A DNA stretch of 64,000 nucleotides. It comes from Nodosilinea nodulosa PCC 7104. Lineage in GTDB: Bacteria; Cyanobacteriota; Cyanobacteriia; Phormidesmidales; Phormidesmidaceae. The translations under genes were made by a program, and so were the position numbers. The notes under the pieces were generated by a model. The model made no database searches and had not been told where the DNA came from. It saw only the letters and a program-made list of their open reading frames with translations. Location: NCBI RefSeq assembly GCF_000309385.1, contig NZ_JH976537.1, positions 2,090,029-2,154,028 of the forward strand, written 5' to 3'. The number at the start of each line of letters is the position of its first letter. The stretch's first letter is position 1. Below are positions 13,934 to 19,055 of this stretch, one piece after another.

Positions 13934-14062
13934 ACAACTCTGGTGCCCTAGCTCCGCCTGGACACCCTACCTCGCGGCTCTGCCGCTCATGCTGACGATG
14001 AGCATTCCCATGCTCTGCATGGGAACGAGGGACGAACGAGGGACGAGGGATAGGAACGAAGG

Positions 14063-14097
14063 AAAAGCCCCCAGAATTTTAAATTCTGGGGGCTTTT
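14063..14097. terminator. bidirectional rho-independent terminator
   Basis: A perfect 17-bp stem (AAAAGCCCCCAGAATTT, one-base centre, complement) with A-run and T-run at the two ends, placed 20 bases past the stop of the minus-strand gene at 14117 and about 230 bases past the DUF4870 gene. Confidence 0.85.
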
Positions 14098-14116
14098 TGC
14101 GGTGTTGGTCTGATGC

Positions 14117-14476
14117 TTAGGCGGCGCGGCGGCGGGGGCGCTTGTGCTCAGACTTTTTCTTGTAGCCGACGGCCTGGGCTTCGTCGCTGTCAGGGCCAAA
14201 GTGGCCGCGTACGGCGGCTTTCATGGCCATGACGGCGTTGTGAAATTCCCACTCGGCCAGGCGGGCTTTGTCGGCGGCGGCTTTGGCTTTGGCCAACAGT
14301 TCGGTCTCTTGCTGCTGCATGGCCTGCATGGTTTGCAGGGCGGCCTGCAGAAATTCGGGCTTGGCCTCGGGGCGGGCGGCGGGGAAGCTAGGGACGGCCC
14401 CTGTGCCCTCAAACGACTCGATATCTTGCAGAATGTGGCGGCTGGGCAGGCGGCGGCTGGTATCGACAATGGCCAT
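14117..14476 (-). CDS. conserved cyanobacterial hypothetical protein
   Basis: A 119-residue protein without recognised domain. It has a helical middle rich in Ala, Gln and Lys (QTMQAMQQQETELLAKAKAA), a short conserved-looking segment (AVRGHFGPDSDEAQAVGYKKK) and a very basic C terminus (KRPRRRAA), suggesting nucleic-acid contact. The start at 14476 has AGAGG seven bases upstream; the open frame continues to 14713 without support. The ribosome site lies within a perfect palindrome (14476-14491), which could control translation. I recall similar short cyanobacterial proteins ending in KKKSE-x-KRP, of unknown role. Confidence 0.75.
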   Translation of the reverse strand: MAIVDTSRRLPSRHILQDIESFEGTGAVPSFPAARPEAKPEFLQAALQTMQAMQQQETELLAKAKAAADKARLAEWEFHNAVMAMKAAVRGHFGPDSDEAQAVGYKKKSEHKRPRRRAA

Positions 14477-14753
14477 AGAGGCACCTCTATAAAAGAACAA
14501 AATTAATAGTTTTGACGGGTTTGCAACGGTGGGGGATTGGTTTTGGTGACGATCGACAGCAGAGTCGCACAGGCGGCTCTGGGCTAAGCGGGGCATGGCG
14601 TTGCTGTCGATAGAATTGCCCACGGAGGTTGCAATCGCGACAAATGCTTTAACGGGTTGGCAAATATGCGTCGAATGGCTTAGAACCCTGACGATGCAGG
14701 CGCAGGTCACCAATGAGATTGAACCGAGGTGCCGTGCAGCAGGACAACGCTAT

Positions 14754-15005
14754 ACAGCGGGGTCGATACGCTTTACAGCTGTGCCACTTCTTTATACAGC
14801 TGTGCCAGTAAAGCTGATCGTGGGGTCGATACGTTTGATCGCGGGGTCAATACGCTTTACAGCTGTGCCACTTCTTTATACAGCTGTGCCAGTAAAGCTG
14901 ATCGCGGGGTCAATCTTTTTGATCGCGGGGTCAATATGCTTGATCGCGGGATCAATATGCTTCACAGCGGGGTCGATATGCTTCATTGGGGGGTCCATAC
15001 GCTTC
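14754..15005. repeat. twelve-unit 21-bp tandem repeat with 84-bp higher-order period
   Basis: Twelve contiguous 21-bp units run from 14754 to 15005, most of them starting ATCGCGGGGTCAATA or ACAGCTGTGCCA. Units 1-4 (14754-14837) and 5-8 (14838-14921) are near copies, giving an 84-bp higher-order duplication; units 2 and 3 equal units 6 and 7 exactly. Because 21 is divisible by three, two plus-strand frames stay open through the array, and part of the minus strand reads as KHIDPAI heptads, but no ribosome site or conserved start supports a protein. Confidence 0.9.
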
Positions 15006-15025
15006 ATTGGGAGGTGAGTAACGTT

Positions 15026-15187
15026 AGTTCGGGATAAGACTCTCACGGGTGACGTAGCGTGGGTCAAACGCAGTGCGACCCACAGGAACTAACAAACTCA
15101 GCTCATAGGCCCGTGGGTTTCGTCCCTCAACCCACGCTACAGCAGCCCTCGTGGTAGGAGTTTCAGCCAAATTTCTTATCCCGAACT
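15026..15187. mobile_element. MITE-like nested inverted-repeat element
   Basis: AGTTCGGGATAAGA at 15026-15039 is matched perfectly by TCTTATCCCGAACT at 15174-15187. Inside is a second pair, GTAGCGTGGGT (15054-15064) and ACCCACGCTAC (15130-15140). The 162-bp unit has no ORF of note and looks like a small non-autonomous element or a long structured repeat. No clear target duplication was found. Confidence 0.55.
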
Positions 15188-15293
15188 CAGGTTGAGTAAG
15201 CTTTACCGCTTGCGATTAGACACCGGGTACCTGAGCGTGCAGGCAAATTTGGCCAACACCAGCAAGCAGGTACCCGGTACCTTGCACGAAAGG

Positions 15294-15572
15294 CTACTCA
15301 ATCAGCACGGTTTTGGTGAGAATCGCCATCCACGTTTGGAGCTCGCCAGGTTGCCCCGGCTCGATGCGGCTGGGCGGCGCGGGGATGGGGTCGCTCCAGT
15401 CGTTGGGGTCGGCGTAGCCGAGGGCGTGGAGGATTTTGATGGTGCGATCGATGGCGGCGAGGCTGCCGTAGAGCATGTGGCGCACCCGCTCTGGGCGAGC
15501 TTGAGGGGTGCTGCGTGAAGACGGCGGAAGATGAGATGCCCCGCTGGCATCGGGTTCGAGATATTCAAACAT
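15294..15572 (-). CDS. small conserved cyanobacterial protein
   Basis: A 92-residue protein. After a Ser/Pro-rich N terminus it has RVRHMLYGSLAAIDRTIKIL, then HALGYADPNDWSDPIPAP, and ends in LQTWMAILTKTVLIE. From memory, this pattern (helix, L-x-Y-A-x-x-NDWS) occurs in many small paralogous cyanobacterial proteins of unknown function. The start at 15572 has GGAG nine bases upstream; an in-frame ATG at 15587 is possible. The upstream open frame overlaps a repeat and is not believed. Confidence 0.75.
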   Translation of the reverse strand: MFEYLEPDASGASHLPPSSRSTPQARPERVRHMLYGSLAAIDRTIKILHALGYADPNDWSDPIPAPPSRIEPGQPGELQTWMAILTKTVLIE

Positions 15573-15608
15573 CGGTTCTGTCTCCATTTGTAGTTGCAGT
15601 GAGCAAGC

Positions 15609-15745
15609 CCTGCCTGCAAGTCCCCTCCTGGGAGGGGCAGGGGTGGGTTCAACTGCGCCCAGCGACTGACATGCCGCAAGCAACATGCTCATCGCCAAGG
15701 CAGACCCACCCCGCCCTGCGGGCACCCCTCCAGTGGAGGGGAAGG
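15609..15745. repeat. composite GC-rich inverted-repeat element
   Basis: Contains two local hairpins, CCCCTCCTGGGAGGGG at 15622-15637 and CCCCTCC/GGAGGGG at 15725-15741, and a long-range pair GGGGTGGGT (15640-15648) with ACCCACCCC (15704-15712). It sits just upstream of the small gene at 15294-15572 and is probably a dispersed repeat. Confidence 0.6.
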
Positions 15746-15858
15746 GCGAGGAAGACAGAACGCGAAAACCCTAGCCACCCGCAGTTGAAATGCAAACTGA
15801 GGGGGCTAGGGTACCATGACCGTAGCCTCGCAATCTGCCTAAGAGACTTGCGGGGTCA

Positions 15859-15893
15859 GCTGTCGGTCGGTGTTAGCCGCACCGACCGGCAGC
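15859..15893. repeat. strong isolated hairpin
   Basis: GCTGTCGGTCGGTG, a 7-base loop TTAGCCG, then CACCGACCGGCAGC give a 14-bp stem with one G-T pair. No T-run follows, and no gene ends here, so it is not a standard terminator. Confidence 0.6.
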
Positions 15894-16042
15894 GCTAAAG
15901 TTTTCGAGTTCTGTGGAATTGCCGCACATTGCTGAACGGCTTAACGATAGAGAGTAGTGGTACAAAAGCTCCCTGTCAACCGTGGTGCGTAACGAAAGCG
16001 TAAAGGGAATTTGAGAAACCTCCGCTGACTTCAAGCGGGTGG

Positions 16043-16194
16043 TTATACTGAATTTTTCTACATAATCACCCATATTGCGATCTTAGGCCGACGATTTTCC
16101 ACCTAATCACCCATATAGGGTGGTTAGGCTGACGGATTTCTACCTAATCACCTATATAGGGATCTTAGGCAGAAAGTTTCCCTCTAAAAATGAG
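16043..16194. repeat. 41-bp tandem repeat, about 3.5 copies
   Basis: Units at 16043-16082 (40 bp), 16083-16123, 16124-16164 and a partial one from 16165. Each carries TTAGGC, then ACCTAATCACC and ATATAGGG. Unit junctions can fold, for example CCTAATCACCC (16102-16112) with GGGTGGTTAGG (16118-16128). It marks the left border of the AT-rich island. Too few and too short-spaced for a CRISPR. Confidence 0.85.
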
Positions 16195-16214
16195 TTAGGT
16201 GTTACAGCAGTTGT

Positions 16215-16323
16215 CATACAGCATTTCCCTGGCTAATGAGGTACAGCTTCAGCTCTAGAACTATTATGGGACAGACGCTTTGACGACTAAGCCGTACCTC
16301 ACGAGAGCGAGAAAGGCTGTATG
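16215..16323. mobile_element. MITE-like element with CATACAGC ends
   Basis: CATACAGC at 16215-16222 and GCTGTATG at 16316-16323 bound a 109-bp segment whose outer 29 bases are imperfect inverted repeats; inside are GAGGTAC (16238-16244) and GTACCTC (16294-16300). No ORF. It lies between the 41-bp array and the first island gene. Confidence 0.45.
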
Positions 16324-16426
16324 GATTGATTAGAATATAACTACGATCTAGATCGCTCATGCTTTAAAAATTGTTGCCCATTCGGCTTAAAAACCAGACT
16401 AACCAAAGCTATATATACAATTCCTT

Positions 16427-17221
16427 ATGAATACAATCACCAGTAAAATTCGTCTCTACCATGCGACTCAATTAAGTGACTTTGAAACTTATCTCAAGTG
16501 CAGTGGTGTGCTATGCAGGGAAGACCTTGAGGCAGCCAACCCCGAGTTTACAAAATTCTTTTCGGATGACAAAGACAAAACTGACAATAATTGGAATAGA
16601 ACATTTGGAAACTTTGCCGATTTCGGTGCTAGGTTTGCCAACTTTGATGGCAGCGTAGTTCCTAATGCTTATGGCCCCATTTGTATAGTTTTCATTCCGG
16701 GACTTGTGGAAATACTTAGTGACTTTAAAGCTACTAAAATCAGTGTAGCTACCGATGGGTATGAGCCAGATTCACACCTCATTTCATTAGATGAACTTCC
16801 AAGCCATTTTGAAGAAACACAATCTGGCGTATTTCCCACAAAGACGAGTTCAGGTATGGAATTTTCGTGCGCTAACCGGATAATTGAGTTTACGAATGTC
16901 GCATATATCATTGTTGATGCGATAGATTATAATGGTAGTTTTTTGCCAGATATAATTACGGAAAAAGTCAGTGGTGCGGGGCTGTCCATCAAGGTTATGC
17001 CTCGGAAAATGAAAAAGCCAGAAGAGAAGCAAGCTATACTATCTGCACTTTTATTATGGGCGGCAACTCTAGGCGGGAAATTGCTTGATGAGAATGAAGA
17101 ACTTGAAAACAGCGTTCCAGATGAATTGAAAGGATGGTTGAAGGGCTTGAATCCAAAAGGGCGCGGCATACTTGCGTCGTGGCTTACATATATTTATTCA
17201 GGCACTTTGCGTTATTTATAA
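16427..17221 (+). CDS. unrecognised protein, first gene of AT-rich island
   Basis: A 264-residue soluble protein I cannot assign. It opens with KIRLYHATQLSDFETYLKCSG, continues with FGNFADFGARFANFD and YGPICIVFIPGL, has SGMEFSCANRIIEF near 150 and a Lys/Glu-rich helical C-terminal third. The early RxYHxT and later ME segment are faintly reminiscent of DarT-like ADP-ribosyltransferases, but this is a guess. Its codons are far more AT-rich than neighbouring genes and it lacks GCGATCGC sites, suggesting transfer. Its TAA stop at 17219-17221 overlaps an AAGGAG box (17220-17225), so the next gene is probably translated with it. Confidence 0.8.
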   Translation: MNTITSKIRLYHATQLSDFETYLKCSGVLCREDLEAANPEFTKFFSDDKDKTDNNWNRTFGNFADFGARFANFDGSVVPNAYGPICIVFIPGLVEILSDFKATKISVATDGYEPDSHLISLDELPSHFEETQSGVFPTKTSSGMEFSCANRIIEFTNVAYIIVDAIDYNGSFLPDIITEKVSGAGLSIKVMPRKMKKPEEKQAILSALLLWAATLGGKLLDENEELENSVPDELKGWLKGLNPKGRGILASWLTYIYSGTLRYL

Positions 17222-17244
17222 GGAGATACATCCTAATCTCTTGG

Positions 17245-18420
17245 ATGGAAGATATTGGATTATTGATAGGTAAAAAATCAAAACTCGTTATGTTTTATTC
17301 AAGAAGAATTAACAAAGAAACTCAGAAAGTTGAGGTCTGGGAATGCGAGTGGTCAAACAAGGGCACTGGCATGGCGAAGAAGGAATTTCTACGTAGAATC
17401 GGTGAAGAAGAAGATATAGAATTTTCTCACGATTCCTATAGCGCGGCAGACGCTGTCTGTTGGGCACCAGGTAGAACAATTGGTAATATCGCGGTTAGTT
17501 CTGAAGAAGCCTTCGGTATGTTTGAGGGGAAGTCAGGCAATGATGCTGTACTCCCTTGTCAAATTATTCCTGCAGGCAAGTTTCGAAACGGAGCAAAGCG
17601 ATGGTATTGCAAGACCCATCAAATACATTGGGGGGTGAAGGCTGACTATGCGGCTGCATCAGAGTCGGGAGAGGTTCTTTGCAGTAATCACCTTACAAAG
17701 ATGAGCTATGTCGTTGACCCCTTAGAAATTGAGTTTAGGGATTTTGAAGAAATCGGTATTTGGTGCTCTCTTCCTCCAGCACTTTCTACCGAGAAAATTG
17801 CAAGAAGATCTCCTAAAATTCATGTTCACAAACGATTTAGCAAAGGTGAACACAAGCTTATAGACAGAGATTTTGATGCAATAGTATGCTCCTATCATGA
17901 GGATATGGGGCTCTTTGCAAATCCGGAAATCACAAAGATACAAGTTACACCTCCTGCCGCATTTGAGTTTGTCCGCTCACTCGAAGAAATGAGGGAAATG
18001 TCATGTGTAACCTGTAAAAAATGTGGCTATCCGCATTTGGATTTAGGCGATTTCGCCAGGAGTCCTCATAAAAAGCATTTCTGCGGGAACTGTGGTAACG
18101 ATAGCATTTGGAGTTCTGAGCCAATCGTCTCTACTCCTTTGAAACCTTTACACGACCAGTTCAGTAATAGCAATAGCTACATCGTTCCTGACAGAGTTGT
18201 TAATCTTGATGAATATGCTGGCTTAAAGTTTGAATTGTGGGCATCTACGCCAGCCGTCCTGTGGACAGCTAGCCGTCCTCAAGAAAAAGGAATTCATGTC
18301 CATGTTTACGACAAGGGTCGACGAGTTGTTGACGATACCTTTGGAACTGTAATTCTTCACGGTCAGGAGCTTCAACGAGATCAGATGTGGGAAAATATGG
18401 TTCAAAATACGCTGTACTGA
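17245..18420 (+). CDS. unrecognised cysteine/histidine-rich protein, second gene of AT-rich island
   Basis: A 391-residue protein of unknown function. Two probable zinc sites are visible: RWYCKTHQIHW with a later LCSNH (about residues 120-150), and a clear four-cysteine ribbon (MSCVTCKKCGYPHLDL, then KKHFCGNCG, about 252-285). The last 60 residues form a beta-rich segment (GIHVHVYDKGRRVVDDTFG). Composition is AT-rich like the preceding gene. The first good ATG is 17245, nineteen bases after a strong AAGGAG box; this spacing is long, so an unusual start codon nearer the box (for example ATC at 17236) cannot be excluded. The stop lies five bases before an attC-like site. Confidence 0.8.
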   Translation: MEDIGLLIGKKSKLVMFYSRRINKETQKVEVWECEWSNKGTGMAKKEFLRRIGEEEDIEFSHDSYSAADAVCWAPGRTIGNIAVSSEEAFGMFEGKSGNDAVLPCQIIPAGKFRNGAKRWYCKTHQIHWGVKADYAAASESGEVLCSNHLTKMSYVVDPLEIEFRDFEEIGIWCSLPPALSTEKIARRSPKIHVHKRFSKGEHKLIDRDFDAIVCSYHEDMGLFANPEITKIQVTPPAAFEFVRSLEEMREMSCVTCKKCGYPHLDLGDFARSPHKKHFCGNCGNDSIWSSEPIVSTPLKPLHDQFSNSNSYIVPDRVVNLDEYAGLKFELWASTPAVLWTASRPQEKGIHVHVYDKGRRVVDDTFGTVILHGQELQRDQMWENMVQNTLY

Positions 18421-18424
18421 TGTC

Positions 18425-18512
18425 ACCTAACAACCCTGGTGCAGCGGATTGGTTAAAGTTATTTTGATAAAATGCAAAGATCTCGACAACCGCTGACCAG
18501 GAACGTTATACC
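18425..18512 (+). other. integron attC-like recombination site
   Basis: TAAC (18428-18431) pairs with GTTA (18505-18508) as R'' and R' boxes; three unpaired bases on each side form the central spacer; CCTGGT-G-CAGCGG (18435-18447) pairs with CCGCTGACCAGG (18490-18501) as a 12-bp L stem with G18441 extrahelical. A18448 is a second extrahelical base before TTG/CAA. The remaining 36 bases fold around ATTTTGATAAAAT as the variable terminal part. The core reads GTTATAC; the consensus is GTTRRRY, so one position deviates. The site directly follows the stop of the preceding ORF, as in integron cassettes. Confidence 0.65.
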
Positions 18513-18644: not shown

Positions 18645-19055
18645 ATGCCAGAAATCACCTACAAAACTGATTTAGATAATGTTGATTGGGTAGAAATGAA
18701 AACAACATTACGCCAAGATGCATTTGACAATGGGCGCAGTCCAGAACAGCTTAAAATTTCGTTTAAAAATAGCTATGCTGCCTGTGTTGCCTATGCCAAT
18801 AATCAAATTGTTGGCACAGCTCGCGTTTTGTCTGATGGTGTTTGCAATGCTTATCTTGTTGATGTTTGGACACTTAGCGCATATCGTCGTCAGGGCATTG
18901 CAACAACAATGATACAAAAGCTATTGCATCGGTTAAAAGGGCAACACGTCTATTTATTTACAGATGATGTTCCCGAACTCTACGCGAAACTTGGTTTTGT
19001 AGATCAACCTATTGGTATGGGGCAAGTCGTTGGAACATGGTTGGTCGATGAATAA
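18645..19055 (+). CDS. GNAT family N-acetyltransferase
   Basis: A 136-residue single-domain GNAT. The acetyl-CoA binding motif A is AYLVDVWTLSAYRRQGIATTMIQKLL (RRQGIA at about 83-88), preceded by the strand IVGTARVLSDG and followed by VYLFTDDVPELYAKLGF, all in normal order. The substrate is unknown. Base composition is AT-rich like the island genes, and it starts 133 bases after the attC-like site; small acetyltransferases are common integron cargo. No second attC-like sequence was found after it. Confidence 0.9.
   Translation: MPEITYKTDLDNVDWVEMKTTLRQDAFDNGRSPEQLKISFKNSYAACVAYANNQIVGTARVLSDGVCNAYLVDVWTLSAYRRQGIATTMIQKLLHRLKGQHVYLFTDDVPELYAKLGFVDQPIGMGQVVGTWLVDE

Follow-up and report, generated by a model that had tools for sequence, protein, structure and literature searches.

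The 21-bp tandem array of Nodosilinea nodulosa PCC 7104 that we analyzed belongs to a repeated module, in which it lies on the 3' side of a small multicopy gene (gene A) with a structured leader; judged from its homologies, this module of A, leader and array is integron-derived. The window, which is the whole stretch of DNA that was analyzed, contains 64,000 nucleotides of contig NZ_JH976537.1. Our tentative reading, held a little short of an even chance, is that the array is a non-coding row of helically phased dyad sites that works as duplex DNA within this module. Each 21-bp unit, about two turns of B-DNA, would carry a short dyad, so that the dyad sites would stand in a row on one face of the helix. 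Either a putative protein would bind the dyads, or the array would be an architectural element or a boundary that lies past A in a decayed integron platform. On the strand of A the module runs from attI-like dyad repeats through intI (intact, broken or lost), a promoter and the structured leader to A and finally to the 21-bp array. The features of the window are collected in Table 1.

Table 1. Features of the array locus in the window (positions count from the first letter of the window)
Feature	Position	Strand	Remarks
Gene B	14117–14476	minus	119 aa, multicopy; next gene past the array here and in other A loci
21-bp array	14754–15005		Twelve units; units 1–4 and 5–8 form an 84-bp duplication
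13th unit, first 16 bases	15006–15021		Compared with L014 and L002
Inverted-repeat insertion in unit 13	15022–15199		Element plus second TGAGTAA copy
Hairpin ACCGGGTACCTG...CAGGTACCCGGT	15222–15278		Between array and gene A; common to L009/L002 and L014
Gene A	15294–15572	minus	92-aa protein, multicopy; array 3' of the gene
Extra stretch between leader and A	15573–15750		Not present in most copies; splits the leader and A matches
Promoter-like sequence and structured leader of A	15751–15990	minus	TTGACA-N17-TACTCT at 15979–15951
attI-like region	16031–16215		41-bp dyad repeats at 16054–16170; homologue lies immediately upstream of intI in L269 and L267
attC-like inverted repeat, weak candidate	18425–18511	plus	Follows ORF 17134–18420

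The original prediction described an exact minisatellite of twelve 21-bp units with a higher-order duplication of 84 bp. Twelve units do lie there head-to-tail and in phase, and the identity at a lag of 21 is 0.67 over the array. Elsewhere in the window, at 1255 places, this identity averages 0.286 (sd 0.039) and does not exceed 0.446. The 84-bp duplication was confirmed as well: units 1–4 and 5–8 are identical at 76 of 84 positions, and the lag-84 identity of the array, 0.90, compares with a maximum of 0.476 elsewhere in the window. The proposed expansion at two levels, of the 21-bp unit and of the 84-bp block, is supported. The description as exact does not stand, since ten of the twelve units are distinct and their pairwise identity ranges from 8 to 21 of 21 positions, with a median of 13. 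The array is also slightly longer than first described, as a 13th unit begins at 15006 and is split by an insertion; the rest of this unit appears to be the GCTTT at 15200–15204, past the insertion. The presence of homologous arrays in further assemblies, independent of this one, speaks against an assembly artefact.

The element inserted in unit 13 is 162 bp long (15026–15187), with perfect 14-bp inverted ends at 15026–15039 and 15174–15187, and it is bracketed by the 7-bp direct repeat TGAGTAA (15015–15021 and 15193–15199). In a search of 28 genomes one copy was found in the window genome (G000) and four in G007. Three other loci (L013, L024 and L025) have a different inverted-repeat element, GTAGGGTGGGCACCGCCCACC...GGTGGGCAATGCCCACCCTAC, between A and the array, and the site between the two may therefore attract insertions.

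Two other classes of repeat were considered and rejected. A CRISPR array is made of identical repeats and unique spacers, whereas here the units vary and follow one another with no spacers between them. Identity with attC or attI sites was dismissed because the units in the window contain no RYYYAAC or GTTRRRY core boxes.

A protein of heptapeptide repeats, read either as KHIDPAI on the minus strand or from an open plus frame, has some basis in the window itself. As had been noted originally, two plus-strand ORFs (14595–15017 and 14729–15037) stay open across the array and a minus frame reads as KHIDPAI-like heptads, although in-frame stops are present in that minus frame. One plus frame also has few stops over 27 arrays, the counts per 1953 codons being 82, 105 and 17 in the three plus frames and 64, 87 and 118 in the minus frames. 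Thus stops occur in all six frames overall; moreover, the substitution rates at the codon positions (0.116, 0.106 and 0.113) are equal in every frame, as measured in 11 of the hand-picked orthologue pairs described below. By these stops and the absence of a codon-position bias we reject heptad coding, which we regard as barely credible, and the original view of the array as non-coding is supported. The divisibility of the unit by three looks incidental.

Gene A has 16 matches in the window genome, and its close relatives in named records come from Nodosilinea, Phormidium tenue FACHB-1052, Tildeniella, Shackletoniella and Leptolyngbya strains. At the thresholds used, searches of Pfam, NCBIfam and PADLOC gave no match for protein A, and its predicted structure (pLDDT 66, pTM 0.43) is too weak for a structure search. 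In some copies (L021, L116) the linker within protein A has an in-frame repeat of its own, of 8 amino acids (SSSGVETR-like). Gene B, with 7 matches in the window genome and no family match above the cut-off, lies beyond the array in many A loci. In an empty-site comparison of the glgP locus, A and B matches were found in some species, but in mixed orientation and with differing gene order.

A search of the window genome for more arrays found three further sites with homologous ones, the match at one of these sites being weak (E 0.0016). Array matches with E ≤ 1e-5 occur in 12 of 57 genomes including the window genome, all within one GTDB genus, and the exact paired-unit pattern was seen in none of 10 genomes of other genera. 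The wider sample consisted of 130 distinct A loci, of which 128 have at least 400 bp downstream. An array was called where the lag identity was at least 0.57 over 84 bp in the 600 bp after A, a threshold chosen post hoc, after an earlier array result had been seen. With this call, 61 of the 128 loci have a downstream tandem array and 67 have none; in the upstream control, arrays were called in 11 of 121 loci, with lags of 40–42. In 54 of the 61 downstream arrays the best lag is exactly divisible by 21: 42 (n = 21), 84 (n = 15), 21 (n = 9) and 63 (n = 9). From this distribution the 84-bp block of the window can be seen as a recurrent theme. Among the exceptions, four are off by one (85, 85, 64 and 83) and three are unrelated (45, 45 and 16).

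Further variants were observed around A. In L194 and L196 the 21-bp array is replaced by a tandem array of 45-bp units that is nearly perfect (identity 0.96 and 0.94, respectively), and in L106 and L130 the array after A is phased by 21 bp with quite different, AACGGCAGGCTGG-like units. Two loci of another family (L298 and L060, G036) show a faint, unproven 21-bp periodicity after A in unrelated sequence (lag-21 identity 0.55 and 0.52); the top three lags of L298 are 21, 42 and 63. Arrays were also found at four places where A was not detected (L015, L019, L030 and L032). A search for leftover units in 62 array-less A loci gave 11 with a score of at least 10 as compared with 7 on the reverse strand, which is no clear signal.

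Tandem head-to-tail units together with a unit number that varies between relatives, here between species, are the marks of a bacterial minisatellite or VNTR, and in both respects the window array resembles this class. It is unlike this class in that arrays of its type are tied to one gene family and its leader in dozens of loci, and in that the period remains a multiple of 21 in most of them despite differing unit sequences.

The units also share a symmetry. Among 465 possible five-pair antiparallel stems, the largest Watson–Crick excess belongs to the one that pairs position 21 of the previous unit with 15, followed by 1 with 14, 2 with 13, 3 with 12 and 4 with 11. Its excess is 0.130, whereas the mean is 0.0003 (sd 0.025) and the best parallel control reaches 0.072. 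Perfect 4-base arms are present in 60 of 480 units, against 20 expected, and the pairs of arms differ (ATCG/CGAT 22, TCTG/CAGA 14, ACTG/CAGT 12 and ATTG/CAAT 7), so that it is the symmetry that is kept and not the sequence. The unit set was limited to in-phase stretches, with L106, L060, L042, L076, L030 and L019 omitted and L114 cut to 7 units, and the dyad is weak in many units. The arms change less than the central spacer (0.096 versus 0.142, p = 0.002) in 11 hand-picked pairs, a comparison in which the arrays overlap with those used for the discovery of the dyad.

Such stems could also act in RNA, where the 3' part of the A transcript, or else an antisense RNA, would fold into consecutive short hairpins that influence stability or termination. 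The location of the array 3' of A is in line with this option, and so is the folding of the window array, whose plus strand folds better than any of 200 shuffled sequences (z −4.22; z −2.01 for the minus strand). Over 41 arrays, on the other hand, neither strand is favored: the mean z-score is −1.65 on one strand and −1.80 on the other, and several values are positive. The stem pairs show no preference for G·T or A·C, and there is no G·U signal on either strand. RNA-specific structure is thus unsupported over the 41 arrays and we consider an RNA element improbable; the absence of G·T or A·C preference, together with the like scores of the two strands, fits with duplex DNA.

The comparison of orthologous loci is where a role for the spacing can be weighed. 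That the arrays change by whole units between species is certain, and this change may proceed by slippage or unequal recombination, often in blocks of 42 or 84 bp. The first comparison used 15 hand-picked orthologue pairs (17 were listed and 2 were missing), 14 of which were drawn from 28 pairs listed of 227; the 14 other listed pairs were omitted, several of them with messy array gaps. In this selection, indels that are not multiples of 21 numbered 2 in the arrays and 18 in the flanks. The comparison was then repeated without picking on all 212 candidate pairs, of which 26 were alignable with a flank identity of at least 90%. In these pairs the arrays differ by 693 substitutions, by 12 non-21 indels and by 21 indels of whole multiples of 21; the corresponding flank counts are 571, 34 and 0. 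When each locus is used once, 12 independent pairs remain, with 342 substitutions, 8 non-21 indels and 8 multiples of 21 in the arrays versus 237, 15 and 0 in the flanks. The difference in non-21 indels in this independent set has p = 0.029, and wider cut-offs give p = 0.045, 0.089 and 0.038. This deficit in the arrays relative to the flanks is suggestive but not secure, and so selection on the array spacing is suggested at most. As for the letters, substitutions are no rarer in the arrays than in the flanks (11.3% versus 8.7% in the 12 independent pairs), which means that the array letters are not conserved.

These numbers bear directly on a neutral origin, in which the array is an old slippage product that hitch-hikes beside A. 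Whole-unit copying would then keep the 21-bp phase and template switching between the arms would make the dyads, all without selection. A substitution rate at or above that of the flanks is what such a minisatellite would show, as is a free variation of unit number between orthologues, for example the 168 bp by which the arrays of L017 and L026 differ in length. The 67 A loci without an array and the insertions within the window array point in the same direction. Against it stand the recurrence of one period family next to A across many loci and species, the lower number of non-21 indels than in the flanks and the slower change of the dyad arms. Yet, unit exchange could keep the phase without selection. 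Because the indel effect is weaker in the unpicked pairs than in the hand-picked ones, we lowered our confidence in the phased duplex sites and raised that in the neutral minisatellite, which we now hold to be almost as likely.

A leader of about 190 nt, together with the promoter-like consensus TTGACG-N17-TATTCT, is located directly upstream of A in 110 distinct copies. A consensus promoter scan of 14000–16450 flagged none, so the promoter is to be taken as a reading of the conserved sequence. The mean column identity is 79% over 55 aligned leaders, and RNAalifold predicts 53 pairs with a long closing stem. Covariation is small: both partners vary in 2 pairs, and for one of these the change is seen in 18 sequences. 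At the Rfam gathering score the window gives 2 tRNAs only, and 15700–16010 gives nothing near the cut-off. In the leader, TTTT follows a hairpin that is adjacent to an alternative pairing of GGCTAGG with CCTAGCC, which may point to attenuation; a terminator scan flagged none at the leader. Pairing between the variable loop of the leader and its own array found no support: in 30 loci reverse complements occur at 0 per kb in the own array and 0.74 in others.

All 98 leader loci with enough flank have gene A, and 47 of the 98 have an array. With the leader covariance model, matches were obtained in 30 of 194 genomes, and in 22 of the 109 genera sampled in the class. Outside the genus, an A relative lies downstream in 14 of 16 leader loci chosen from the matches listed, some of them (G033, G027, G036) previously known to carry A; the remaining two are a contig end and L300.

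The link to integrons comes from the other side of the leader. In 10 of the 98 leader loci the leader is immediately preceded by an integrase gene of the same orientation, a count that leaves out 6 of 16 matches as these cover only the attI-like stretch (up to about 30 integrase residues). Three of the ten frames are unbroken (L260–L262) and seven are broken or partly deleted. The L260 protein reaches 486.8 bits with the integron integrase model TIGR02249 (cut-off 265). Unbroken intI genes without a nearby leader or A also exist (L263, L264 and L268–L271), and dyad repeats of 41–42 bp lie upstream of intI. Over 168 bp the attI-like region of the window shares 75.6% identity with the sequence that lies upstream of intI in L269 (E 6e-26 among the collected loci), and it abuts the leader directly, without intI between. 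Strict inverted repeats upstream of leaders occur at 0.28 per 400 bp (0.13 in shuffled sequence, 0.29 at 900–1300 bp upstream), showing no local excess, and hence the attI argument rests on the homology of 16031–16215.

Cores resembling attC are concentrated on the attI-like side of the leaders, where 60 were counted in 151 kb, versus 2 in 153 kb on the array side; the 60 split into 32 and 28 by strand, as attI-like dyads are counted too. The candidate attC-like site of the window has a score of 16, and the minus strand and both strands of a control region of the window also have one score of 16 each; as single-stranded DNA it folds with z −2.02 (8 of 200 shuffles as good). Three candidate cassette genes lie on the plus strand past the attI-like region (16427–17221, 17134–18420 and 18645–19055), two without a Pfam match above the cut-off and one distantly like GNAT acetyltransferases.

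The proximity of an integrase raises the option that the array is a row of recombinase sites. Its dyads would bind a tyrosine recombinase, either the integron integrase or another one, and the array would be the counterpart, on the far side, of the attI-like repeats. A dyad with a 6-bp center is a common recombinase layout, which the dyad of the units resembles, and three of the ten A loci with intI also have an array. This option is weakened by the scarcity of attC- and attI-like cores on the array side and by the persistence of arrays in the window genome, where no match to the 73-aa N-terminal domain of the integrase was found at E ≤ 1e-8; we rate it slightly below even the RNA element.

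Compared with a chromosomal integron (intI, attI and attC cassettes), the module is alike in that related A loci carry an integron integrase and the window keeps a homologue of the stretch that lies upstream of intI elsewhere, and unlike in that the window genome is without an intI match. Integrons, as intI, are on record in cyanobacteria (PMC2426708, PMC8618304), and cyanobacterial LexA is mentioned in PMC3108266. The leader, A and the 21-bp array on the 3' side of intI depart from the integron structure as described in the accessible part of PMC8618304. The intergenic TAACTGA direct repeats of Beggiatoaceae, as far as they are presented in the accessible part of PMC4679880, are similar as short direct repeats between genes with several copies per set; their unit has 7 bp and one fixed sequence, whereas the window array has a varied 21-bp unit with a dyad. 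No description of such a module was found among the titles and abstract openings of a literature that lay largely outside subscription journals, and within the same literature no joint treatment was found of integron with Nodosilinea, or of integron integrase with cyanobacteria and Leptolyngbya.

A bolder proposal, which we consider unlikely but well above the RNA and recombinase options, is that cyanobacterial integrons have an undescribed second half 3' of intI. It would consist of a promoter with structured leader, protein A and a phased dyad array, kept and multiplied after the loss of intI, and its parts would jointly control or stabilize the locus.

With these results, what seemed to be an isolated minisatellite becomes the marker of a multicopy, apparently integron-derived module of array, protein A and leader. 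The leader is a candidate for a new family of RNA, or of folded DNA, in its own right. If selection acts on the phase of the array, we would have here a clear example of intergenic repeats in bacteria that are kept for their helical spacing and not for their sequence, and the natural copy-number variants at orthologous loci make such phase selection testable in culturable cyanobacteria.
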